Positions 11,462-24,701 of a DNA stretch of 64,000 nucleotides are shown here, piece after piece. Each line of letters starts with the position of its first letter. The stretch's first letter is position 1. The notes under the pieces were generated by a model. That model made no database searches and was not told the DNA's origin. It saw only the letters and a list, made by a program, of their open reading frames with translations. Position numbers and translations under genes: made by a program. Source of the DNA: Dyadobacter chenhuakuii (GTDB lineage: Bacteria > Bacteroidota > Bacteroidia > Cytophagales > Spirosomataceae); the NCBI RefSeq assembly GCF_023821985.2, contig NZ_CP098805.1, positions 2,108,001-2,172,000 on the forward strand, given 5' to 3'.

Positions 11462-13048
11462 TTAATTCCAGTCGTTGGTAATGTCTTTCGCGACTAGCGG
11501 ATTGGTGTTTTTCTCAGTTAAGGGAATAGGAAATAATACGTGTTTGTCCTGGAAGAAAGACTGACTTGACGCCGGATACTTCGCTTTCTTTTCAGCATTC
11601 AAGGTTTCTTTGGCAATGCCCCAGCGGATGAGGTCAAACCAGCGCACTTGCTCACCGACGAGTTCCAGTTGGCGTTCCAACATGAGCTTTTTCATTGCCT
11701 CGTCCTTGCTACCCAGCGCAGTGTAGGCAAATGCGCCGGAGCGGGCGCGCACTTTGTTGATCAATGGCAAAGCTTCACCTATTTTTCCGACCTGGATCTG
11801 CGCTTCGGCGAGCATCAGCAGTACATCGGCATAGCGGATGATCTGGGAATTGATGTCCGATTGGGGTAGTTCGCCTTTTTCCTTGTATTCGTAAGGTTCG
11901 TATTTCCTCCACCGGTAGCCATTGCCATTCTCTGCGAACGGATACGTTTTTACCCCGGCAGCGCATTTGTCGCAATAGGTTACGTCGCCTCCGCTGGCTT
12001 TATCTCCGTAGAATGTGTTTTGGGCTCTCGGATCGACATAAGCCTTGCCGGCTTCATCTTTATAAGTGAATGCTTTCACGGCTGCGTCTGAGATAAACAC
12101 GTTTCGCCAGTCGTTCCAGCCGTATTCCATGGCGCGGCCGGTCAATGTATTTTTACCGCTTCCCGATCCTTCCTGAGATCCAAACATATAGTATGGACTT
12201 CCTTCGGCCCAGCCCCCCCATTCTTTGTGCGGAACGTCGAAAACCGATTCTGCGTTTTTCACAGGCGATTTAGTGAAGAGCTCGTCGAGGTTTTTGACCA
12301 GATCATACGTGTAAGGCGCCTTGGTCAGTAGCTCAAATTGCGCGGCAGCTTCGGCGTATTTCTTTTGGTATAAATAGGTTTTGCCCAATAATGCAATGGC
12401 CGCACCTTTGGTAACCCGGCCCAGGTCGCCCGCACTGGCGTACGTGACAGGCAGTCCGCTGATTGCATTGGTGAGATCCGATTCAACCATTTTCCAGCTT
12501 TCCTCAGTACTCGCCCTTGGAAGATAAAATTCGTCGTTACCACTGTAATCCTTGCGGATCGGCACCCTGCCCCAAAGCGTTACAAGCAAAAACTCAGCAT
12601 AAGCCTTCAAAAAATAGGCTTCGGACACATATTGGGCCAGTTTTAACTTCTCTGCATCGTTTGCAGGTGTTATTTTCGCAGCTTTATCGATCACCAGATT
12701 CGCCCGGAAAGTCATTTTGTAAGTGGTAGACCAAAGGTCATTGATCTGCGCATGATTGGGTGCATAACTGTAATCGTGCAGCTGCAAAACGTCCCCCAGC
12801 AACGGCGCATCTGCCTCGGCTTCATTCCCGGTAAGATCCATTAAATAATAGAAATCCCTGGAATACAACCCCTTGTAAAGTAGCAGCCCATAAGTCGCTG
12901 TAACAGCTTCTGAAATCGTGGCGGGCGTTGTGAAGTAAGTATCGTCGTTGTAGCTCGACTGATTTTTGACATTATCCAGTGAGTTGTCGCAGCCGGCAAG
13001 GGTAAGGCAGGCCAGCGTTCCCAGCGAAAGTATTTGCTTTTTCATCAT
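11462..13048 (-). CDS. SusD/RagB family outer membrane lipoprotein
   Basis: A 528-residue lipoprotein with lipobox LTLAGC (Cys20). The N-terminal half has TPR-like helices (NLVIDKAAKITPANDAEKLKLAQYVSEAYFLKAYAEFLLV) and the C-terminal half has SQIIRYADVLLMLAEAQIQVGK and ERQLELVGEQVRWFDLIRWG, the signatures of RagB/SusD. Such proteins sit on the cell surface and lid the partner SusC barrel, binding the oligosaccharide. It follows SusC by 27 bases and is the last gene of this polysaccharide locus. The bound glycan is probably a beta-glucan such as xyloglucan, judged only from the GH74-like enzyme upstream. Confidence 0.94.
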   Translation of the reverse strand: MMKKQILSLGTLACLTLAGCDNSLDNVKNQSSYNDDTYFTTPATISEAVTATYGLLLYKGLYSRDFYYLMDLTGNEAEADAPLLGDVLQLHDYSYAPNHAQINDLWSTTYKMTFRANLVIDKAAKITPANDAEKLKLAQYVSEAYFLKAYAEFLLVTLWGRVPIRKDYSGNDEFYLPRASTEESWKMVESDLTNAISGLPVTYASAGDLGRVTKGAAIALLGKTYLYQKKYAEAAAQFELLTKAPYTYDLVKNLDELFTKSPVKNAESVFDVPHKEWGGWAEGSPYYMFGSQEGSGSGKNTLTGRAMEYGWNDWRNVFISDAAVKAFTYKDEAGKAYVDPRAQNTFYGDKASGGDVTYCDKCAAGVKTYPFAENGNGYRWRKYEPYEYKEKGELPQSDINSQIIRYADVLLMLAEAQIQVGKIGEALPLINKVRARSGAFAYTALGSKDEAMKKLMLERQLELVGEQVRWFDLIRWGIAKETLNAEKKAKYPASSQSFFQDKHVLFPIPLTEKNTNPLVAKDITNDWN

Positions 13049-13075: not shown

Positions 13076-16000
13076 TTAAAACCCGACCTGCAATCCGACG
13101 AGGAACGTCCTCGGCTGTGGATACTGACCTGTATCGACGCCTTTGGTGAAAATAAAAGACTTGGCATCGTTCACACTCGCGCTTACTTCGGGATCATATC
13201 CTTTGTATTTGGTCAATGTGAGCAGGTTCATCGCGGTGGCATAAATGCGGAAGCTCGAAAACACTTTTCCGCCTGTGGAATTCAAAATTGTTTTCGGGAC
13301 CGAGAATCCAAGGGTGAGGTTGCGCAACCGCATGAACGAGCCGTTTTCCAGAAAGCGGTCGGAAGCACGCAGGTTGGAAGGTGTATTCTGGCCGGATCTT
13401 GGCATATCGGTAACGTCTCCATCCTTTTTCCAGGCATTGAGTACAGCCGTTGAAGAGTTGAATGGGCGCGTTGTGCCTTCTGTCCAGTAACGCAATGCAT
13501 TGTAAACTTTCACATCGCCGATCCCCGCCAAACCCATCGAAAGGTCAAAAGCTTTGTAGGATAAATTGACCGAGCCACCATAAGTCCAGACGGGGATCGC
13601 CGAGCCGAGGAACGACTGGTCTGCATCGGTAATGCGTCCGTCGCCATTCAGATCTTGATAAACAATGTCACCCGCCTTTAAACCGTCCTGATAACTTGCA
13701 AACCCCTTCGCAACCGCCTGCTCATTATACCTGGCCACATCCGCAGCGCTGGACACCACATGATCCACCTTGTATCCGTAGAATGAACCAATCGCCGCGC
13801 CTACATCCGTTTTGGTGATATTAATTCCACCATTGGTGCTGCCACTCACGATCGGCGCGCCATTGCCAAGTGACACTACATTGTTCTTATTATAACCCGT
13901 ATTGGCCGAAATGCTGTAACTGAAATCTCCTGACTGCCCTGCATAAGATAATGCGGCTTCAAAACCTTTATTAACTGCATTAGCCGCATTCTGAACCATG
14001 CTCGCATCATTATAAACATCTCCCAAACCTGTGGAAACGGGCAGTTTCACATCCAGCAGTAAATCCTTGCTATCGCGTTTGTAGTAATCCAGACTCACCT
14101 GAAGTCTGTTTTGCAAAAGGCCGAAATCAACTCCAAAGTCGATCTGCGTGGTTTCTTCCCATTTTAGGAAAGGGTTAGGCACGCGGGTAACGGTCGCTCC
14201 TTGTTGGAATGCTTTGTTTTCGCCAAAAGAATAGACAATGTTGTTATTTCCATAGCCTCGGTAAACGGTCGGGTCAGTGAGGAACAAGCCGATATTCGCA
14301 TTGCCGGTAATGCCCCAGCTGCCGCGCAGTTTAAGGTCGGAGATAAAGGAGATATTTTTCATAAAATCTTCATTCGCAACCTTCCAAGCCACCCCAACTG
14401 ACGGGAAATTCCCTTTGCGGTAAGCCTTTCCAAATGCAGGGTTAATGTCCTGACGGATCGATGCATTTACGAGATACCTGTCATGAAAAGCGTAGGTAAG
14501 ACGGCCAAAATACGAGCGGGAAGCATAAATACTCGATCCAGTGCCGGTAATGCTGTTGGATTTGGAAACACCGATTTGCTTGATGAGGTCATTGGTAAAA
14601 CCCGAACCGGTCATATTCACGCTCCGGCTCCTGGTGCCTTCATTGTAGGTGTTACCGGCCATGAGTGAAAAATCATGACGGCCTATTGTTTTCGTGTAGC
14701 TCAGGATATTTTCAATGATCGGCGACACTGAGAATGAATAGCTTTCCTCGATCTTGCGGTCAATTTTGGTATTTCCGTTCAGATATTCGCCTGTGTAATT
14801 ATAGCTGTTGCCATTGGAAAGGCCGATGTTCGCCTGTGTCCTGAATTTGAGGCCATTGATAATGTCCACTTCACCCCATAATTGAAACAGATTCGAGACG
14901 CCTCTTCCTAGTTTTTCCGTGAGATAAATGCCTGGTAGCGGATTGAGCGCATCGTTCTGGTCGATGATCGTCGTCACTTTACTATATCCTCCCAGGTTGG
15001 CTGGGTCCATTGTCGGTGCGTAGGGTGGCATCCGGAGCGCCTCTACAAAGCTGGCTGCATTGCCCGTTGTCCTGTTGTATTTAAAGTTAATGGTTTGTCC
15101 AAGTCGAATTCTTTTGCCGATCTGCTCTTCGAGCTGCGTGCGTAAATTGATCCGCTGGTAACCATAATCCCGCATAATACCCTCCTGATTGGTATAACCA
15201 GCCGAGAAGTTATAGGTCGCTTTATCACTTCCGCCTGTTACGTTCACGTGGTGCTCGGTGATTTTTCCATTCCTAAAAATCTCTTTCTGCCAGTCGGTCC
15301 GGGTTACCAGCACGTCGGGCGTGTTGAGTTTATCGGGCACTTTGTTTCCCTGTACTGCATCAATGTCTTTTACCAACTGCACATACTGCGCCGCATCCAG
15401 CATATCGAGCCTTTTCCAGGCCTGTGCCACGCCTACATAGCCATTGTAAGTCACTTTTGGCGTTCCGGCTTTGCCTTTTTTGGTAGTAATCAACACAACT
15501 CCATTGGCTGCCGATGCGCCATAAATCGCCACGGAAGCAGCATCTTTCAGCACCGTAATGTCCTGAATATCATAAGGACTTACTGAATTGATATCGCCGC
15601 CCTGGATCCCATCGATCACATAAAGCGGATCGGAATTGGTGAGCGAACCAACGCCACGAATGATGATTTTGGCATTCGAGCCCGGTAATCCGCCTGTATT
15701 CACGATCTGTACACCGGCGATTTTACCCTGCAAAAGTTGCTGGGCAGATGTAGCCGATACATCCCCGAATTCCTTGCGCCCAACCACGGCAACTGCGCCG
15801 GTCAGGTCTTTTTTCTTGGCCGTTCCGTAACCGATAACCACCACTTCTTCCAATGCTTTTGTATCCACCGAAAGCGAAATATCCACGACAGAACGATTCC
15901 CAACGATCTCTTCCTTTGGCAGATATCCTACAAAAGAAAATATCAGAACATCGTTGGGACCTGCTGCTGTCAGCTCATATTTGCCCGCAATGTCCGTCGT

Positions 16001-16597
16001 AACGCCACGTTGCGAACCTTTGATCACCACATTCACTCCCGGAAGTCCATTGCCTCGCTCATCTGTAACCCTTCCCTTGATTGTCTCTTCCGCTGGATTT
16101 TCCTTTGTTATTTTGGAAACAGTAATTTCAGTCCGGCTCAACGATTCAGGAGCCGCACTTGGGGCGATGGTAGCGCTCTCAATCGTGGCTATTCCGGCCT
16201 CAGATACTTTTTTCTCAAATCGTGAAACGATCACATATGCTTCTTTTCCTGCTTTTTTGAAACGAAGATTGAACGGTTTGAGCAGATCTGTCAGCTGCTT
16301 TTCCAGCTTGCCGCCTTCCTGACGGAAATCCGCGCCGGTAATGGTGATATTTTTAACGGTTTCTTCTTCAAACAATATGCTTACTTGGTGCTGCTTGCCC
16401 AAATCTACCAACAAATCTTTCAGGTTTTTGGCGCTGCTTTCTTCGCGTTGGGAAAGATTCCGTTGGACGGCATTCCGTTGGGCGGCATTCTGCTGAGTCG
16501 GTCGACTTGCAAATGAAATAGCCTGCGCCGTGCAAAGCTGCTGAACAAATAACATGGTCAGCACGATACGGGTTTTTTGTAGAAATCTGCTACTCAT
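13076..16597 (-). CDS. SusC/RagA TonB-linked outer membrane transporter with STN domain
   Basis: A 1173-residue protein with a signal sequence. After a stretch rich in QRN repeats, residues 60-130 form a secretin/TonB N-terminal (STN) signalling domain (NLKDLLVDLGKQHQVSILFE). A carboxypeptidase-regulatory-like domain follows (GRVTDERGNGLPGVNVVIKG), then the SusC linker ALEEVVVIGYG, a plug and a large barrel. The STN domain is used by transducers that talk to a FecR anti-sigma factor, and fecR overlaps this gene by 8 bases upstream. It should therefore both import glycan pieces and report them to the ECF sigma factor encoded here. Length is normal for the family. Confidence 0.95.
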   Translation of the reverse strand: MSSRFLQKTRIVLTMLFVQQLCTAQAISFASRPTQQNAAQRNAVQRNLSQREESSAKNLKDLLVDLGKQHQVSILFEEETVKNITITGADFRQEGGKLEKQLTDLLKPFNLRFKKAGKEAYVIVSRFEKKVSEAGIATIESATIAPSAAPESLSRTEITVSKITKENPAEETIKGRVTDERGNGLPGVNVVIKGSQRGVTTDIAGKYELTAAGPNDVLIFSFVGYLPKEEIVGNRSVVDISLSVDTKALEEVVVIGYGTAKKKDLTGAVAVVGRKEFGDVSATSAQQLLQGKIAGVQIVNTGGLPGSNAKIIIRGVGSLTNSDPLYVIDGIQGGDINSVSPYDIQDITVLKDAASVAIYGASAANGVVLITTKKGKAGTPKVTYNGYVGVAQAWKRLDMLDAAQYVQLVKDIDAVQGNKVPDKLNTPDVLVTRTDWQKEIFRNGKITEHHVNVTGGSDKATYNFSAGYTNQEGIMRDYGYQRINLRTQLEEQIGKRIRLGQTINFKYNRTTGNAASFVEALRMPPYAPTMDPANLGGYSKVTTIIDQNDALNPLPGIYLTEKLGRGVSNLFQLWGEVDIINGLKFRTQANIGLSNGNSYNYTGEYLNGNTKIDRKIEESYSFSVSPIIENILSYTKTIGRHDFSLMAGNTYNEGTRSRSVNMTGSGFTNDLIKQIGVSKSNSITGTGSSIYASRSYFGRLTYAFHDRYLVNASIRQDINPAFGKAYRKGNFPSVGVAWKVANEDFMKNISFISDLKLRGSWGITGNANIGLFLTDPTVYRGYGNNNIVYSFGENKAFQQGATVTRVPNPFLKWEETTQIDFGVDFGLLQNRLQVSLDYYKRDSKDLLLDVKLPVSTGLGDVYNDASMVQNAANAVNKGFEAALSYAGQSGDFSYSISANTGYNKNNVVSLGNGAPIVSGSTNGGINITKTDVGAAIGSFYGYKVDHVVSSAADVARYNEQAVAKGFASYQDGLKAGDIVYQDLNGDGRITDADQSFLGSAIPVWTYGGSVNLSYKAFDLSMGLAGIGDVKVYNALRYWTEGTTRPFNSSTAVLNAWKKDGDVTDMPRSGQNTPSNLRASDRFLENGSFMRLRNLTLGFSVPKTILNSTGGKVFSSFRIYATAMNLLTLTKYKGYDPEVSASVNDAKSFIFTKGVDTGQYPQPRTFLVGLQVGF

Positions 16598-17600
16598 GAT
16601 TAGGGTTGGTTACTGATGTTCTCAATTCAATAAATTCGTTGTGTTTTACCACTTCCAAATGAAGCAGTTCAGATAAGATGGCCAGGAGGTCGTCGGCTTG
16701 CCTCGCTTTGTAGACGCCGCCGATCCGACGGTTACCAAGAACGGGGTCAAGTATACGCACATCCACTTTGAAGCGTTCGTTCAGCTGTTGCACCGCCTCT
16801 GACAAGAGCGTATTGTCGAAGTAAAACATATCCTGCTTCCAGGCCACGAACTTTGCTGGTGTCGATGAAGATGTAAGCGTGAATTTTCCGTCTTTTTCGG
16901 TTGAAAACAGATTGCCGGGTTTCATATAAAGCTGCTTTCCTTTCGGCAGGCTTAGCTTTACCTTTCCTTTTGTTAGAAAAACCTTCGTACCACGCTCACG
17001 AGAGTAAGCAACAAACTCAGTACCAAGGACTTCGATAGAATAATCTTTATCCATTTTCACAATGAACCGGCTATCCTGCTCGGTATGAACGACTTTGAAC
17101 TCTGCCTCACCTTCCAGCACTACTTCCCGGTTGCCCGATCCGAAACCGAGCCTCGGAACGCGTAAAACTGAATTGGCATTAAGCACGACTTTCGTTCCGT
17201 CCGAGAGTTCAAAGGCAGATATACGGCCGTTATCGGATGTTAATGATTTGTACATCAATTCCTGATTGAAAACAAAGCCGCCCACCACCAGGAAACAAGC
17301 AGCCACGGCACTGTAAGCCCATGCACTTTTCCAGATGCTGAAATGCGTTTGTTCTATTTGTTGCAAAGGGATTTCCCGGGCTGCATCCTGATCGTTGACC
17401 AGCGCAACAAATTCAGAGAGAGCGCTTTCCACCTGCGGTGAAAACTGCGGATGGCGGCTTTCCCATTCGTCGAGATACTGATAATAAAGCTCTTCATTCC
17501 GCGGGTCAGCCAGCCAGTCTTCGACGAGCTTACGCTGAATGGATGTGGTCCTTCCGTCAAAAAAATCGAAGAGGACGTCTTTGGATAGGGATTCTTTCAT
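16590..17600 (-). CDS. FecR family anti-sigma factor
   Basis: A 336-residue inner membrane protein. About 85 cytoplasmic residues (KLVEDWLADPRNEELYYQYLDEWESRHPQF) lead to one membrane span (SAVAACFLVVGGFVFN). The periplasmic FecR domain (FELSDGTKVVLNANSVLRVP ... VEVLGTEF-like strands) follows, then a C-terminal DUF4974-like domain (LLSEAVQQLNERFKVDVRI) that would meet the STN domain of SusC. It should hold or release the ECF sigma factor encoded just upstream. A copy of the locus promoter motif lies 63 bases before the start, between it and the sigma gene. Confidence 0.93.
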   Translation of the reverse strand: MKESLSKDVLFDFFDGRTTSIQRKLVEDWLADPRNEELYYQYLDEWESRHPQFSPQVESALSEFVALVNDQDAAREIPLQQIEQTHFSIWKSAWAYSAVAACFLVVGGFVFNQELMYKSLTSDNGRISAFELSDGTKVVLNANSVLRVPRLGFGSGNREVVLEGEAEFKVVHTEQDSRFIVKMDKDYSIEVLGTEFVAYSRERGTKVFLTKGKVKLSLPKGKQLYMKPGNLFSTEKDGKFTLTSSSTPAKFVAWKQDMFYFDNTLLSEAVQQLNERFKVDVRILDPVLGNRRIGGVYKARQADDLLAILSELLHLEVVKHNEFIELRTSVTNPNHE

Positions 17601-17663: not shown

Positions 17664-17694
17664 ACAGACAAGTGCAGTGGCCCGAACCCCATGT
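17664..17694 (-). promoter_or_regulatory. Putative ECF sigma promoter before fecR-susC-susD
   Basis: Read on the minus strand: ACATGGGGTT, 13 bases, TTGTCTGT. The same two blocks with the same 13-base spacing occur before the sigma gene and before the GH74-like gene. The spacing from GGGG(A/T)T to GTC is 15 bases, usual for ECF promoters. The leader to the fecR start is 63 bases. Confidence 0.6.
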
Positions 17695-17699
17695 CGGGT

Positions 17700-18359
17700 T
17701 TATACTTTAATTGAAATCATCAGCGCGAGGCAGATAAACCAGCTGTCTTTCAAGCCCGTGCGAAGCCTTGCGATGGCGCGGGTAATGAGCGCTTCCACCG
17801 ACTTGGGCGTAATCTGAAGCTCAGCTGCAATTTCTTCTAGCGACTTGCCTTCAACGCGTTTAAGCAGATAGGCTTTCCGGCATTGCGACGGCATATCCTG
17901 TACAATGCGCTCGACCTGCTGGTGCAACTCGCTGTATAACAAAGCGTCACACGGATTGAGCGTATGGGCCTCGAAAGGCGTGGTCATTCCGTCCATCGGG
18001 GACGTACGGTTCAGGTCCCATTTCAGGTAATTGTAGGACCGATTTCGGACAGATTTGTACAGGTAAGCGCGGTAGGAAGTGTTGATGAGTTCAAAAGTCC
18101 GGCTTTGCCAGAAAGCTGCAAATACCTCTGACACAATATCTTCCGCGACTTCGCTGGAATGCACAAACCGGATCGCGTGGTTGCATAAATTGGTGTAATA
18201 CTTTTTAAACAGCAGCTCGCAACCTTTCTGCGGGTCCAGGCTGAACGTCTTGCGGATCAGGTATTCGTCGTCGAGCATCATGGGGCCGTTATCCTGCGCA
18301 GACATATCCGCTACGTCCTTTTCGGCTGACGGTAGTTTGTTGATAGAATTTATTGCCAT
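17700..18359 (-). CDS. ECF RNA polymerase sigma factor (Bacteroidota FecI-like)
   Basis: A 219-residue sigma-70 of the ECF class. Region 2 is seen in LFKKYYTNLCNHAIRFVHSSEVAEDIVSEVFAAFWQ and region 4 in LPSQCRKAYLLKRVEGKSLEEIAAELQITPKSVEALITRAIARL-like sequence near the C-terminus. There is an unusual 40-residue N-terminal extension before region 2. It lies between the GH74-like gene and fecR on the same strand and probably drives this whole locus, including its own gene, through the shared two-block motif. The start used is the ATG at the beginning of the frame. Confidence 0.93.
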   Translation of the reverse strand: MAINSINKLPSAEKDVADMSAQDNGPMMLDDEYLIRKTFSLDPQKGCELLFKKYYTNLCNHAIRFVHSSEVAEDIVSEVFAAFWQSRTFELINTSYRAYLYKSVRNRSYNYLKWDLNRTSPMDGMTTPFEAHTLNPCDALLYSELHQQVERIVQDMPSQCRKAYLLKRVEGKSLEEIAAELQITPKSVEALITRAIARLRTGLKDSWFICLALMISIKV

Positions 18360-18377
18360 ATCGTTTCATTAACGCGG

Positions 18378-18391
18378 CTGCAAATTTGCAG
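18378..18391. promoter_or_regulatory. 14-base perfect palindrome in the sigma gene leader
   Basis: CTGCAAATTTGCAG reads the same on both strands. It lies 18 bases before the sigma start and 9 bases downstream of the putative -10 block, near the expected transcription start. A repressor operator at that place is plausible. No regulator has been linked to it. Confidence 0.35.
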
Positions 18392-18400
18392 TTCTCTCAC

Positions 18401-18431
18401 ACAGACAAAACCACAAGCTCTATCCCCATAC
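18401..18431 (-). promoter_or_regulatory. Putative ECF sigma promoter before the sigma gene
   Basis: Read on the minus strand: GTATGGGGAT, 13 bases, TTGTCTGT, with an A-rich tract just upstream. The leader to the sigma start codon is 41 bases, identical to the leader at the GH74-like gene. This would make the sigma factor autoregulated. Confidence 0.65.
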
Positions 18432-18535
18432 TATAAATAATATTTTTTTTTCAGAAAATAATTCTATTTGATCCATTTCTGAGGTGCATAACAATATAGC
18501 TCTGCCTACCGCAATGGTTTATGCGGATTGAGTTT

Positions 18536-18720
18536 AAAAATCCCGGAGGGATGTAATATTGGTAGCCGCGCCGCGGCAGAGAAATATGGGTAGTAACATT
18601 AAAATCCCGTAGGGATGAAACAACATACACGCCGTTTCATCCCTACGGGATTTTAAAATTTCAACAATCATCTTTTTGCTACCGCGCGGCGGCGGCCGAT
18701 ATTTCATCCCTACGGGATTC
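18536..18720. repeat. Complex REP-like palindromic repeat (ATCCCGTAGGGAT family)
   Basis: Four copies of a 17-20 base unit containing TCCCGTAGGGATGAAA occur in 185 bases. One variant copy (TCCCGGAGGGATG) is at 18541. A perfect 21-base inverted pair sits at 18601-18621 and 18634-18654 around a 12-base loop. A fourth copy is at 18701-18720. Between them are two GC-rich blocks (GGTAGCCGCGCCGCGGC near 18561 and GCTACCGCGCGGCGG near 18679) that are rough inverted copies of each other, so the whole element is nested-palindromic. It lies directly after the GH74-like stop codon, where it could end or stabilise the transcript. Confidence 0.75.
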
Positions 18721-18731
18721 AATCAGTATTC

Positions 18732-21700
18732 CTACCGCCTCACAACCTTCAATACAACCGCTTCCCGTGAAGAACCTACCCTGATCAGGTAAAGCCCTGC
18801 TGTTTTGCCGAGCGGCAATGTGTGACGCTCTTGGTCGGCTGGTTTTGGGATTGATTTGCTGAACAAAGAACGGCCATTCACGTCGATAACCGTTACGTTG
18901 AGAGGCAATGCATTTGCACCGGTGATGACAACCTCGGCCTGGTCGCTGCTAACGGGATTTCCCATTAGTGTGGCGGTTAGTTTGGCTGGTTCCACTTCAT
19001 TTTCGACTATTCCGAACCGGCCGTTAGTCTGCGCAGCAGGTTCCTCGCCGTACACGAGCTGTCCTTTGTAGTAAACCGTTATCTTGCTGTTTTCAGCAAA
19101 TGGCGCGGCTGCTTTGAAGGAATAGTCGTTGCTTTCATCAAATGCTGACCAATTTGACTTCGCGATCCTGTACTGAATATTGCCGGTGCTGCTTAGTGGA
19201 TACAATTTTCCGAGCGAAGGCGCACCTTTCAGTTCGAAATAGGTGTCCGCATTCACTTTCTGCTGGTTGCCAGCGAACTGGCCGCTCACGTTTGCAGCAC
19301 CCAGTGCGGCGAAGTCTATCCAATGGTTCAGACTGGCAGTGCCGTCTGATGTGAACCAGTAGCGTATCGCAAGATCAGCGTAGTCTACAGGTACATTGCC
19401 TTTGTTCTCTACTTTGATCCACGTGCTCAGCGAGGCTGGCGACGCATTGGTATTTTTGTTTTCCGAATAAACTTTCAAGTCCATAACCGACGTTGCCGTG
19501 TCGGGTTCCACGCCCCACCAGAGTTTGCCGTTGCGATACAGCGTGATGTGATCGTTGGCAACGTAGGCAGAAGCGTTTTTGAAAGAGTAGTCGTCGCTTT
19601 CCGAAAGATCGGCCCAGTTCGTGTTGGCAAATCTGGTTTGGATAGCTCCCGAATTGGCCGACGGATTCAAATTCCCCGCAGAAACATTGAAAGCGATTTC
19701 AACATAACCCAATGCGCCATTGCGCGGTTTGGTCAGTTCCACATAGTTCATAGAAACCTTGCTGTTTCCCATTTCAGCGAAATCCACCCATTTGTTAATG
19801 CCCGCAAAATTCTCGGCAGTAACCCAGTAGCGGGCAGTAAGTTCGCTGTACGGAACTGCAACGGTGCTTTCGTTGGCAATGGTTAGGTATGGTTTGATGT
19901 GATTGTTGTTCACCTGTCCATTGTCGCCATCCATGTAAAGCACTTTCAAACCGGAAGAAACGACCAGTGTCCGGCTCGATGGCTCCGCAGGACTAAACGT
20001 TTCGTTCCCACTCTGAGAAGCGGTGATTACTGTGGTTCCGGGCGCAACAACTTTGATTTTTCCATTGGCTATAAGGGCCACAGAAGTGTCTGAACTTGCA
20101 TACGTTACCGGCAAACCAGATGATGCTACTGCGCCCGGATCGAAGTCGGCATCGCCCACTGTTTTGCGCACCAAGCTATCCAGTGAAACCGTTTGTGCAA
20201 CGACCGGAGGAGCTGCTATCGTCAGACAGAAATCATCCAGTATTAGCTTTCCGCTAGGGCCGGCTTTTGATGCCCATATGCCGATCGTTACGGCATTTGC
20301 AGGTGCTAATTTGGTTACTGAATATTTGGTATAAACCGTTTTTGCCGGATCAAATGGGTGAACCTGGAACTGCGTGGTACCACTCGTAATTTTTACTCCC
20401 TGCGCATCATAGAAATCGATTCCTATCCCAGCCCACCATGGCAGGATAAATTGCGATGCGTTTGAGGGATTTGGCGTCGCTTCTACTTTGGCCCAAACCT
20501 CAAAAGTGATCTCTCTGCCTCCGGTTACCGGAATTGTTTTTCCATAATTAATGGCTCCCTGATCCGCTGTGATCACGGCACTTTTCAATCCGCTTTGCGC
20601 TGATGTACCAATGGTCGCAGCCGCTGCATTCGGGTTCCTAATCCAGTTTACAAAACCACTTTCAAAACCATTGTTGGTAAGCACACCGCATGAACCCGCG
20701 CTGACAACCGTTACCGCCGAACCGGAAGAAACACCGCCTGCATCCTGTGCTGTGGCATTAATCGTAGCATTACCGACGGCGACAGCTGTTACAATTCCGG
20801 TTGCACTTACCGTAGCGACACTTGGATTGGATGAGCTCCATACCACCGTTTTGTTGCTTGCATTGGCAGGCGCAATCGCTGCTTTAATGGAAGTTGTATC
20901 CCCCACGCCCACAGTGGCTGACGTTTTATTTAATGTAACCGATGTGATCAGAACATTGGAAACCGTCACTACACTGCTAGCGGTTTTGTTCCCATCCTGC
21001 GTAGTGACGGTAACATTTGCAGTTCCAGGGGAAACGCCGGTTAATACACCACTTTGACTCACTGAAACAATGCCCGCATCGGATGTAGACCAGGTAAGCG
21101 TTTTATCAGTAGCATTGGCGGGTTGTACAGTAGCAACAATCGTAACTGAGTTATTCACGCCAACCGAAGTTGTAGGTGTGAGCGAAACACCACTCACAGC
21201 GATATTGGAAGCAGTTATAGTCGCTGAGGCTGTTTTCTGGCTCTCATTCGTGGTAACTGTGATAGTGGCAGTGCCAGGTGATACGCCTCTCACCAGCCCT
21301 GTTCCGTCCACGCTTACAACAGAAGTATTGGAGGAGCTCCAAACGACTTTTTGATTGGTAGCAATGGCGGGTAGTATCGTAGCCGACAACCGTGTTGTGT
21401 CGCCTACACCCACAGCAGCATTGGACGGAGTTACGGCCACAGAAGCAACAGGTGTGAGTCCTACTTCGATACCACTAACGACAGGAAACTCAAAATTCGG
21501 TATAGGCCTGAAAACAACATTAAGTAATCCTGACGCATTGGAACGGACCGAAAATTCTCTTACAATACCCTTAAATCTTCCACCGGCCTGCGCGATAATA
21601 TCAAAGTTTTTAAGCAATGTGTCAGCTACACTGGTGCCGGTCACATTAAATTTCCTTTTTCCAGCAGTAACGGTTGTAGTGATCTCAGCAAAATGAATTC

Positions 21701-24629
21701 TGACTGTATACAGACTATTTGGCACCAGATTTCCATAGGAATAAATAAGCGGATGACCGCTGTGGCGCTGTGATCTGTATACATCCGCCGGAGCAGGAGA
21801 GCTGATGGCGCTCAAATCAATAGCTGTTGTTGTAGAGGTAGTCCATTGGTAGCCCGACTGCGGTGAGTCGGCAACAAAATTTCCAATCGTAGGCCCTCCG
21901 CAGTTGTTTGCAACCACGACAGTACCCACGGTCAGCACCGAGGTCGCTGTTTTTGCTGCATCTTCCGTGGTGACGGTAATGGTGGTTGTACCCAGCTTTA
22001 AGCCGGTTACCAAGCCACTGGAATTTATCCTGGCAACCGTTGTATCCGACGAAGCCCAGCTTACCTTTTTATTGGTTGCGATGGCAGGAAGGACAGTTGC
22101 AGTCAGATTTCGGCTCGTGCCTAATCCTATGTTGATGGCCGGGTCAAGGGTAACACTCGTCACACCGGTGGTAGGCGTAACTTTGATGCTGCTTTGGGCC
22201 GTTTTTCCACCATCCTGCGTCGTTACCGTAATGGTAGCAACGCCGGGAGCGACTCCGGTAACCAATCCTGTTGCATTCACAGTTGCAATGGCCTCGTCAG
22301 ATGATGCCCAGCTGATGGCATTATTGGTGGGATAAGTCGGGGTAAGTGCAGCTTTTAATTGTTTTGTAAAACCAACAATGACAGAGTCAGCAGCTGGTGT
22401 TACGGCCACAGAAACAACCGGGCCGCCTGCGGGCTCACCCACAAAAATGCCATTGCCGCCAATGCCCAAATACACTCTTCCATGCAAATCAGCAGCCATA
22501 TTACTCACAATACCCGGAACCGGGTTAGCGATCGTTGTCCAGGTAACACCATTATCATCGGACCGGAAAACACCATACGAAACGCCATTGATCCCTGTGC
22601 CTTCCGAACTTACAAAGATCACTGGACTGGCAGATGCAGTTGTATCTGCCTTGCCAACCGCAACCCATTTCGGCTTTTTGATCACATCCGGATTGATTTT
22701 GGTAAAGCTCTGGCCAGCATCTGTGGAATGGAACAGGCCGTCACCGGAGAACGAAATCCAGATATCTCCTTCCACGCCCGGTGTAGTTTCCACACTCATT
22801 TGCGCCACATTTCCAACATTAGGCAGATTGCTTGCCGCAGTCGGCGCAAAATTGACCCCTCCATCGGTGCTCTTGTAAATCTTACCATTGGCATAAATGT
22901 AAAAGACATTACCATTCACTTTATCAGCGGCTAATGGCTGCATTCCTGCCCAGATCTGGTAAATATCACCAGGCTTTAAAACCGCATTAGGAACACCATT
23001 GCAGGCTGTCCAAGTGGTACCCAGGTTGTCGGAATAATAAGTGAGCCCGCCCTGCGTAACCCAGACCATTTTGCGGCTGGTCGCAGAAACTGCGATCCTG
23101 CCTCTTGCTCCCGGAATCGAAGGAAATTTCACATAAGATCCCCCGCCATTGGTCGAATAGCCTCCTATTCCCGTACCATTCCAGCCATCGCTTCCTACCC
23201 GTGCTATAAAATTGGGATCTGAATACTGAATGGCGCCTCCGGATGTATTGCAACCGGTTTGGGTTGCAAACCAGGCGGATATTCCTTTCAAAGGTGGTGA
23301 ATCCAGCGATTTGTGGTCGAAACCACCTACGTCGCCTGTTGTCGAAACCAAATAATTGGGGCCCGACGGCGGGCAGACCATTGGGCCGGCTACGACAATT
23401 TCTTCCAGTCCGTTATCGCGCAATTTCCAGGTTACCCGGCTTGCCCACACATTGGTCGTCTGGCCCACATCGAGCATATCCGAAAACCAGACGTGACCTG
23501 CATTAAAAGGATCCCAGGCAAAACCATTGACATTATGGCCGATATTTCCATTCGCTCCATCTCCGGCTGAATGCGGCGCTTCCGAGACATCGCGGGTTGC
23601 CGGTGCCATCGACGTCCAGCTACCCTGGCTCCCACCCGAAGTGCTGCGGTAAGCCACATCATGGTTCCACGTACTCGTTGTTGATACGATCACTTCGTTG
23701 CTATTGGACGGGTTGACGCCCACGCCGCTAAACTCCTTGCCAGCCACCGGTGTGATATCGATCCAGCTGCTTCCATTCCATTTATGCAAAGAATGCCCAC
23801 CTGATGGACGGTAATCGGCTTTCGGCAGCCGGCTTACGAAAAAGGTACCGTCGTTGCTGATGCTCGCACGACGCGGTTCGGCCGGACTTCCAGGCATTAA
23901 GGCAAAGGTATTTCCTCCGTCCGTACTGCGGTATACGCCGGCCTTGCCACCCAGGAAAATGTTCCGGGTCACGCCATTGACTACTCCACCGCTTTTGTCA
24001 AAAAAGATAAATCTGCCTGATACCGAATCCGGCAAAGTAGTATTCACTTTCGTCCATGACCCTACTGCGCCCGCGGCTGTACTTTTGTGGGTACCATTTG
24101 CCCGGCTTGTTACATATACTACATTACTGTTGTTTGGGTCAACAGCGATGCGGTCTGTGTAAGTCTGGTCACTATTTGGCAAAACTGTTATGCGAAGCTG
24201 GCAGTCGGTCCAGGTATTGCCCCTGTCCACCGACTTCATGACCGTTCCCGGCGAAGTGCCACCTCCCGGCACCGTGCCCATGCCCGTCTGATGTGTTGCG
24301 TAAAGAATGTTACCCGTTACGTCGCTGGGGTCAAAAGCAATATCACCGCTCTTGGCGGCAGCTTCCCAGTTCCAGTAGGTGGTCGGAATCTTACCGGACC
24401 ACATCATATCCTCCCATTTCTGGGCGGCGTGGTTCCAGCGGTAAGGTGTGCCTACGTCCGTGGTGATAAAGTAAAGATTAGGCACTTTGGGATGCGCTTT
24501 GATACTGGTTACATTACCTCCGCCGCCAATTCTAACCGGTTTCCAGTTGTAGGTCTGTGCTTTTGCGACAAAATTCAGGGCTCCTGTCAGTGCAATCAAC
24601 AGCAGCAGCATTCGGAATAATCCTTTCAT
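18732..24629 (-). CDS. Secreted multimodular GH74-like glycanase with CBM3 and T9SS sorting domain
   Basis: A 1965-residue exported enzyme. The signal peptide ends near Ala24. Residues 25-735 are a GH74-type double propeller with repeated Asp-box-like STDGG segments. The WKPVRIGGGGNVTS start, TDVGTPYRW (candidate catalytic Asp58) and TGDVGGFDH match the two conserved GH74 acid regions. Then come two Big2 Ig-like domains (about 738-905), a malectin-like domain (905-1060), three more Big2 domains (to 1310), a CBM4/9-like module (1314-1470), another Ig-like domain, two CBM3-like modules (1560-1710 and 1716-1870) and a C-terminal T9SS type A sorting domain. It should be displayed or released outside the cell and cut xyloglucan or a related beta-glucan while bound to cellulose. 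The substrate is inferred from the family. Confidence 0.88.
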   Translation of the reverse strand: MKGLFRMLLLLIALTGALNFVAKAQTYNWKPVRIGGGGNVTSIKAHPKVPNLYFITTDVGTPYRWNHAAQKWEDMMWSGKIPTTYWNWEAAAKSGDIAFDPSDVTGNILYATHQTGMGTVPGGGTSPGTVMKSVDRGNTWTDCQLRITVLPNSDQTYTDRIAVDPNNSNVVYVTSRANGTHKSTAAGAVGSWTKVNTTLPDSVSGRFIFFDKSGGVVNGVTRNIFLGGKAGVYRSTDGGNTFALMPGSPAEPRRASISNDGTFFVSRLPKADYRPSGGHSLHKWNGSSWIDITPVAGKEFSGVGVNPSNSNEVIVSTTSTWNHDVAYRSTSGGSQGSWTSMAPATRDVSEAPHSAGDGANGNIGHNVNGFAWDPFNAGHVWFSDMLDVGQTTNVWASRVTWKLRDNGLEEIVVAGPMVCPPSGPNYLVSTTGDVGGFDHKSLDSPPLKGISAWFATQTGCNTSGGAIQYSDPNFIARVGSDGWNGTGIGGYSTNGGGSYVKFPSIPGARGRIAVSATSRKMVWVTQGGLTYYSDNLGTTWTACNGVPNAVLKPGDIYQIWAGMQPLAADKVNGNVFYIYANGKIYKSTDGGVNFAPTAASNLPNVGNVAQMSVETTPGVEGDIWISFSGDGLFHSTDAGQSFTKINPDVIKKPKWVAVGKADTTASASPVIFVSSEGTGINGVSYGVFRSDDNGVTWTTIANPVPGIVSNMAADLHGRVYLGIGGNGIFVGEPAGGPVVSVAVTPAADSVIVGFTKQLKAALTPTYPTNNAISWASSDEAIATVNATGLVTGVAPGVATITVTTQDGGKTAQSSIKVTPTTGVTSVTLDPAINIGLGTSRNLTATVLPAIATNKKVSWASSDTTVARINSSGLVTGLKLGTTTITVTTEDAAKTATSVLTVGTVVVANNCGGPTIGNFVADSPQSGYQWTTSTTTAIDLSAISSPAPADVYRSQRHSGHPLIYSYGNLVPNSLYTVRIHFAEITTTVTAGKRKFNVTGTSVADTLLKNFDIIAQAGGRFKGIVREFSVRSNASGLLNVVFRPIPNFEFPVVSGIEVGLTPVASVAVTPSNAAVGVGDTTRLSATILPAIATNQKVVWSSSNTSVVSVDGTGLVRGVSPGTATITVTTNESQKTASATITASNIAVSGVSLTPTTSVGVNNSVTIVATVQPANATDKTLTWSTSDAGIVSVSQSGVLTGVSPGTANVTVTTQDGNKTASSVVTVSNVLITSVTLNKTSATVGVGDTTSIKAAIAPANASNKTVVWSSSNPSVATVSATGIVTAVAVGNATINATAQDAGGVSSGSAVTVVSAGSCGVLTNNGFESGFVNWIRNPNAAAATIGTSAQSGLKSAVITADQGAINYGKTIPVTGGREITFEVWAKVEATPNPSNASQFILPWWAGIGIDFYDAQGVKITSGTTQFQVHPFDPAKTVYTKYSVTKLAPANAVTIGIWASKAGPSGKLILDDFCLTIAAPPVVAQTVSLDSLVRKTVGDADFDPGAVASSGLPVTYASSDTSVALIANGKIKVVAPGTTVITASQSGNETFSPAEPSSRTLVVSSGLKVLYMDGDNGQVNNNHIKPYLTIANESTVAVPYSELTARYWVTAENFAGINKWVDFAEMGNSKVSMNYVELTKPRNGALGYVEIAFNVSAGNLNPSANSGAIQTRFANTNWADLSESDDYSFKNASAYVANDHITLYRNGKLWWGVEPDTATSVMDLKVYSENKNTNASPASLSTWIKVENKGNVPVDYADLAIRYWFTSDGTASLNHWIDFAALGAANVSGQFAGNQQKVNADTYFELKGAPSLGKLYPLSSTGNIQYRIAKSNWSAFDESNDYSFKAAAPFAENSKITVYYKGQLVYGEEPAAQTNGRFGIVENEVEPAKLTATLMGNPVSSDQAEVVITGANALPLNVTVIDVNGRSLFSKSIPKPADQERHTLPLGKTAGLYLIRVGSSREAVVLKVVRR

Positions 24630-24670
24630 ACTTGAAGATTTTGGTAAGAAGTAGTTTTTGACATCTTCGT

Positions 24671-24701
24671 ACAGACAAGTAGGTCAGGAAAATCCCCATA
24701 C
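24671..24701 (-). promoter_or_regulatory. Putative ECF sigma promoter before the GH74-like gene
   Basis: Read on the minus strand: GTATGGGGAT, 13 bases, TTGTCTGT, with a run of A residues some ten bases further upstream. The first block and the spacing match the copy before the sigma gene exactly, and the leader to the start codon is again 41 bases. This ties the secreted enzyme to the sigma factor of the same locus. Confidence 0.65.

Follow-up and report, generated by a model that had tools for sequence, protein, structure and literature searches.

The window, a stretch of 64,000 nucleotides from Dyadobacter chenhuakuii, carries on its minus strand three two-block sites that are very probably (we put the probability at about 0.88) ECF-type promoters read by the adjacent FecI-like sigma factor, the promoter of its own gene included. 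The common form of the three sites is ATGGGG(A/T)T-N13-TTGTCTGT, in which ATGGGGWT would be the −35 element and TTGTCTGT the −10 element (Table 1). Bacteroidota can hold dozens of ECF sigma factors, many of them beside glycan-uptake loci, and few of their promoters are known.

Table 1. Genes and predicted regulatory elements of the locus (positions are those of the window)
Feature	Position	Strand	Basis
SusD-family lipoprotein	11462..13048	-	PF07980, PF14322 above cut-off
SusC/RagA TonB-dependent transporter	13076..16597	-	TIGR04056 840.8 bits
FecR-like anti-sigma / sigma regulator	16590..17600	-	PF04773, PF16344 above cut-off
Predicted promoter of fecR-susC-susD: ATGGGGTT-N13-TTGTCTGT	17664..17692	-	pattern search, 13 orthologous loci
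FecI-like ECF sigma factor gene, 219 aa	17700..18359	-	TIGR02985, Pfam
Predicted promoter of sigma gene: ATGGGGAT-N13-TTGTCTGT	18401..18429	-	pattern search, 13 orthologous loci
A/T-rich tract, candidate UP element	18430..18454	-	directly upstream of predicted sigma promoter
Secreted enzyme, 1965 aa	18732..24629	-	phmmer, Pfam, TIGR04183
Predicted promoter of secreted enzyme gene: ATGGGGAT-N13-TTGTCTGT	24671..24699	-	pattern search, relatives

The profile search assigned the sigma factor to TIGR02985 (Sig70_bacteroi1) with 138.8 bits against a cut-off of 126.4, and the Pfam domains Sigma70_r2 and r4_2 both scored above cut-off. The regulator that adjoins the sigma gene has the FecR domains (PF04773, PF16344), as FecI/FecR cell-surface signalling requires. 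The end of fecR overlaps susC by 8 nt (16590-16597), which suggests translational coupling of regulator and transporter.

The N-terminal region of SusC was compared with the FecR_C and STN signalling folds. In the window protein FecR_C reached 14.3 bits, below the cut-off of 24.4. Among 13 SusC N-termini (from the window and from 12 relatives, including one paralog) a weak likeness at E up to 1 was seen to FecR_C in 11/13 and to STN in 3/13, the best E-values being 6.3e-4 and 2.9e-4, respectively. The AlphaFold model of this region is weak (pLDDT 54) and gave no fold match at E 0.001; when solved structures were searched with a profile, no match had an E-value below 0.2. The region may thus be said to resemble the FecR_C/STN fold weakly.

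The secreted enzyme consists of a GH74-type catalytic part, five Big_2 domains, two CBM_3 domains, a malectin domain and a T9SS sorting tail, the last just over its cut-off (TIGR04183, 23.7 bits against 23). Its first 760 residues match 6p2m (E 1.8e-78) and the xyloglucanase 6mgj (E 1.7e-58) in phmmer; we take both to be GH74 entries. By similarity over the predicted catalytic part the enzyme is assigned to the GH74 type (xyloglucanase-like), which makes xyloglucan or a similar plant polymer its probable substrate.

The first-pass annotation of this DNA, made from the sequence alone, had described the three minus-strand sites; all three were found again, at coordinates shorter by two upstream bases, and the second block is indeed identical at each. 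The site before fecR-susC-susD lies 7 nt past the sigma stop codon. An A-rich tract had been noted before the sigma and enzyme sites; it does exist, and other species have conserved it: over the 25 nt upstream of the sites the mean pairwise identity among orthologous loci is 0.84 for the sigma site and 0.76 for the enzyme site, with 0.57 for fecR, and we consider the A/T-rich tract a candidate UP element. The ‘same 41-base leader’ attributed to the sigma and enzyme genes did not hold: both leaders are 41 nt long and only 11/41 positions are identical, therefore the match is a coincidence of length, and the leader was rejected as a shared sequence. We also rejected TTGTCTGT alone as evidence; it is unremarkable in the window, with five copies against 1.67 expected, and 5/100 shuffles reach five.

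The full motif is far more specific. A genome-wide scan for ATGGGGWT-N13-TTGTCTGT, which had been proposed as a check, gave three exact matches in 6,083,856 bases, all at the locus, with none for the reversed control; when window dinucleotide frequencies are applied to the genome length, ∼0.007 matches are expected. The scan was extended to close relatives (Dyadobacter, order Cytophagales, Bacteroidota), comprising 48 genus genomes and 222 family genomes. An ortholog of the sigma factor, at about 73-100% identity, is present in 13/48 Dyadobacter genomes, the next matches being at 55-63%. The exact motif occurs in 13/13 genus genomes with the ortholog and in 0/35 without it, so that presence of the motif equals presence of the sigma ortholog in 48/48 genomes, as expected if the motif clusters at this locus and at homologous loci. 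The 222 family genomes contain 21 exact matches (reversed control 0), and 20 of the 21 are at the locus in the same 13 genomes; the match in genome G114 runs antisense inside a coding frame and was rejected as a regulon member. Ten orthologous loci appear under both L048-L059 and L068-L077 and entered these counts once.

Variation of the spacer and of the letters led to the same three positions. With spacers N8-N18, 31 matches were found in the 48 genus genomes: 20 with N13, seven with N12 and strays with N8, N9, N16 and N16 (the reversed control gave five matches over 11 spacings). All seven N12 matches stand before enzyme genes. A relaxed pattern gave 43 matches in the 13 genomes, and the expected three sites in every genome account for 39 of them. 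None of the four extra matches recurs, the reversed control gave more (eight), and we rejected the four as further regulon members; by this search, which would miss weaker sites, the regulon appears to comprise these three promoters and no others.

The spacing had been described as always 13 bases. This is true of the window and, in relatives, of 13/13 sigma and 13/13 fecR sites, be they exact or changed at variable positions; it fails for the enzyme site, which has N12 in nine of 13 species and N13 in four (one of these N13 sites belongs to a gene remnant). With N12 or N13, the enzyme site is present in 12/12 genomes that have the enzyme, in addition to the remnant. We compared 38 of the 39 sites (the N12 enzyme site of G062 was left out) in orthologous loci and found a mean pairwise identity of 0.93-0.98 for the blocks and 0.47-0.61 for the spacers. 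The sequence TTGTCT is invariant, while 35/38 sites read ATGGGG and 3/38 ATAGGG; the letter that splits the window's group from its nearest paralogs is thus not strict. The similarity might be ascribed to descent from upstream DNA that was copied and has no function, given that the region upstream of the sigma gene is conserved beyond the motif (0.84 over 25 nt, as above). At the fecR and enzyme sites, however, identity is down to 0.35 and 0.44 in the 25 nt downstream and to 0.50 and 0.61 in the spacers, against 0.93-0.96 in the blocks; this divergence around preserved blocks makes functionless ancestry barely credible. An ECF-type promoter is characterized by two elements that stand upstream of genes at a nearly constant distance and are conserved in relatives, and we refer to the three sites as predicted promoters.

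The enzyme ortholog (80-100%) is found in 12/48 genus genomes, each of which also carries the sigma ortholog. In G017 the enzyme gene is located ∼2.25 Mb away from the sigma gene and still keeps its site, with N12 (L205 / L227, C1:3365916-3368360), an arrangement that favours a trans-acting reader. The enzyme promoter regions of G017 and G035 are nearly identical, and the move in G017 may therefore be recent. In the closest relative, G006 (sigma 98%), the enzyme is reduced to an 85-residue N-terminal remnant (L048 8379-8697), whose predicted promoter differs in one base; the sigma, fecR, susC and susD genes of G006 are full-length matches at 95-98%.

The promoter geometry extends beyond the orthologs. 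We collected 97 distinct related sigma genes, mostly from among the matches listed and with the window's group included, which form 20 groups at 68% identity; the genes were taken going down the scores, with some rows skipped, before upstream regions were looked at, and four proteins were excluded as duplicates. In the 300 nt that precede the start of the match to the window's sigma factor, GGG-N17-GTCT was present in 65/97 of these genes among the matches listed (12/20 groups), with a mean of 0.7 and a maximum of 2 in 20 dinucleotide shuffles. The sequences counted for N16 (14) and N18 (13) all prove to be N17 sites with a longer run of G, and every other spacing from 10 to 24 was seen in 0 to 4 sequences and in at most two groups. 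The shorter form GGG-N17-GTC is carried by 74 of the 97 genes among the matches listed and is lacking in 23; among these matches it is wholly missing upstream in groups 3, 6 and 11 and in five singletons. The flanking letters are group-specific, examples being CTAAGGG...AAAGTCTT, TATAGGGAA...TTGTCTGG and TACGGG...CTTGTCTAA. The members of group 3 are L027, L028, L145 and L148-L152, those of group 6 L025, L026, L078, L144 and L146. Upstream of the group 3 genes a different stretch (...GACC(A/G)CGTGTCC) is conserved, and it may represent a promoter written in other letters. The two-block spacing fits an ECF promoter, as had been suggested, and the geometry recurs upstream of most related sigma genes among the matches listed.

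The same counts bear on two other explanations of the motif. Instead of a sigma promoter, it could be an operator through which a conventional transcription factor regulates the locus: co-occurrence alone leaves the binding protein unspecified, and the block starts are 21 bp apart, about two helical turns. By inspection, however, neither block repeats the other, in direct or in inverted orientation, and GGG-N17-GTC at 74/97 related sigma genes among the matches listed, with varied flanks, fits a sigma family better than one regulator; we consider an operator unlikely. Alternatively, the sites could be sigma promoters at which cross-talk prevails, with one or several paralogs of the neighbouring sigma factor, and not that factor itself, as the main readers. 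The genome has 27 sigma matches, the GGG/GTC core is common to paralog groups, and the 3/38 sites with ATAGGG carry the letters of the nearest paralog group. This explanation has to face the complete absence of the exact motif from the 35 genus genomes without the ortholog, although 26 of them, when scanned, hold 18 to 51 related sigma matches each, and we judge it still less probable than an operator.

Recognition by the window's own sigma factor is what we infer from co-occurrence and geometry, which together support a sigma factor reading its own gene, the anti-sigma/transporter operon and the secreted enzyme gene. The start sites, the signal and the feedback are part of the same proposal. 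The SusC/D transporter would meet a glycan, probably derived from xyloglucan, whereupon FecR would let the sigma factor work. The freed sigma factor would then transcribe its own gene, giving positive feedback; it would transcribe fecR-susC-susD from the separate promoter past its own stop codon; and it would transcribe the gene for the secreted GH74-type enzyme. The presence of the predicted site before the sigma gene in 13/13 loci argues for such autoregulation.

It is conceivable, at what we regard as even odds, that the FecI-like sigma factors of Cytophagales follow GGG-N17-GTC as a general promoter grammar, in which most of them would read their own gene, the flanking letters would be the code that separates the paralogs of one genome, and the ATGGGGWT/TTGTCTGT regulon would be one word. 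A second site, between sigma and fecR, was found in 20/97 sequences and 4/20 groups among the matches listed (shuffles: mean 2.2, maximum 5); by this count among the matches listed, a separate fecR promoter is a minority design. GGG-N17-GTC between sigma and fecR was seen in three other groups of fecI paralogs, in 2/2, 1/1 and 4/8 members (L147, L154, L190, L029, L153, L161 and L167), hence a separate fecR promoter is not unique to the locus. In the window's own genome 4 of the 27 sigma matches have GGG-N16/18-GTC upstream; it was not found upstream of the nearest paralog in this genome, L078 (48%). A pairwise search for blocks shared upstream or downstream of single sigma genes was too noisy outside the main group.

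Outside the genus, 69 TIGR02985 sigma genes from eight genera were scanned over the 450 nt that precede the profile match. GGG-N17-GTC is present there in 20 (3.6 on average in shuffles, at most 5), and the next spacing is N18, with 10 (3.2 on average in shuffles, at most 7). This is an enrichment, not a rule. Since TIGR02985 also gave weak matches in 11/14 control genomes, and matches over the cut-off in one, the count was restricted to those that exceed the cut-off. Of 70 such matches listed, 69 entered (L031 was omitted); L285 (below cut-off) was left out as well, and L297 (frame problem) was kept.

Region 4 of sigma factors reads −35 elements. All columns of the sigma alignment were ranked by how well they separate groups that have GGG-N17-GTC from groups that lack it, and the top five (175, 174, 191, 187 and 152) were all in region 4 (147-199); columns lower in the ranking lie both inside and outside it. 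The best p of 0.004 is uncorrected for ∼219 columns or for relatedness, and the ranking serves as a pointer only.

The promoters of known ECF sigma factors are of the GGAAC ... GTC type. The window sites share with them a G-rich −35, a GTC-containing −10 and about the same distance between the two; they differ in the −35, which reads ATGGGGWT and not GGAAC, and have TTGTCTGT at the −10. The locus resembles E. coli FecI/FecR/FecA in having an ECF sigma factor, a FecR-type regulator and a TonB-dependent outer-membrane protein side by side, as well as a sigma-dependent promoter (predicted, in the window) before the transporter operon. In E. coli, fecR shares a Fur-controlled transcript with the sigma gene, whereas in the window it is joined to the transporter genes behind a site of its own. 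According to the part of the source available (PMC9249621), fecIR and hasI are not autoregulated; in the window the motif stands before the sigma gene itself, and self-reading would be a difference from both.

The locus is also similar to Bacteroides PUL-linked pairs (BT1877/BT1876 of PUL24) in combining sigma and anti-sigma in a glycan locus. In an anti-sigma mutant of PUL24 in Bacteroides thetaiotaomicron, separate 5′ ends were mapped before the PUL gene BT1875 and the enzyme gene BT1871, and one mapped start is inside the anti-sigma gene, as given in the available sections of the study (PMC11501099). A sigma consensus was not found in those sections, whereas the locus in the window has a consensus, with the sigma gene included. 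Another ECF-type motif of Bacteroidota is the SM6 promoter motif of Flavobacterium psychrophilum; in the accessible text (PMC9723704) it is associated with T9SS components and with low nutrients rather than with a SusC/D locus. EcfO and a −30/−10 motif are further examples in the portions available of PMC12596196 and PMC7366714.

The arrangement of ECF sigma factor, FecR and SusC/D is already known. The consensus, the regulon and the geometry were not found in a literature search, in which a consensus as such is not text-searchable and supplements lay outside the search; nor were they found in the available parts of PMC12596196, PMC3878776, PMC9723704, PMC7366714, PMC13114119, PMC10766802, PMC8999054 and PMC12632263. 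The 2021 ECF classification might list related motifs, and thus the novelty of the consensus is provisional. B. thetaiotaomicron has 50 ECF sigma factors, nearly half of them in PULs, and two of its ECF factors were tied to a non-canonical motif in 2025 (both from the accessible part of PMC12596196). At the time of a 2020 map a motif was known for no ECF factor of this species (PMC7366714, in the text available), and a 2013 study described the prediction of ECF promoters as a challenge that needs start-site data (PMC3878776, likewise in part). Comparison alone gives here a consensus, an apparently closed regulon of three promoters and a likely substrate class, and the GGG-N17-GTC geometry lends itself to tests with many further sigma factors. 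If the reading of the sites as promoters of the adjacent sigma factor is true, the assignment of sigma factors to promoters in Bacteroidota becomes directly testable, and the system offers insulated promoter-sigma pairs.

An inverted pair of ATCCCTACGGGATTT is located at window positions 18602-18653, between the enzyme stop codon and the predicted sigma promoter. The genome contains only these two exact copies, and shorter copies with one mismatch are at 18538 and 18707; the pair is perhaps a terminator or a local repeat.
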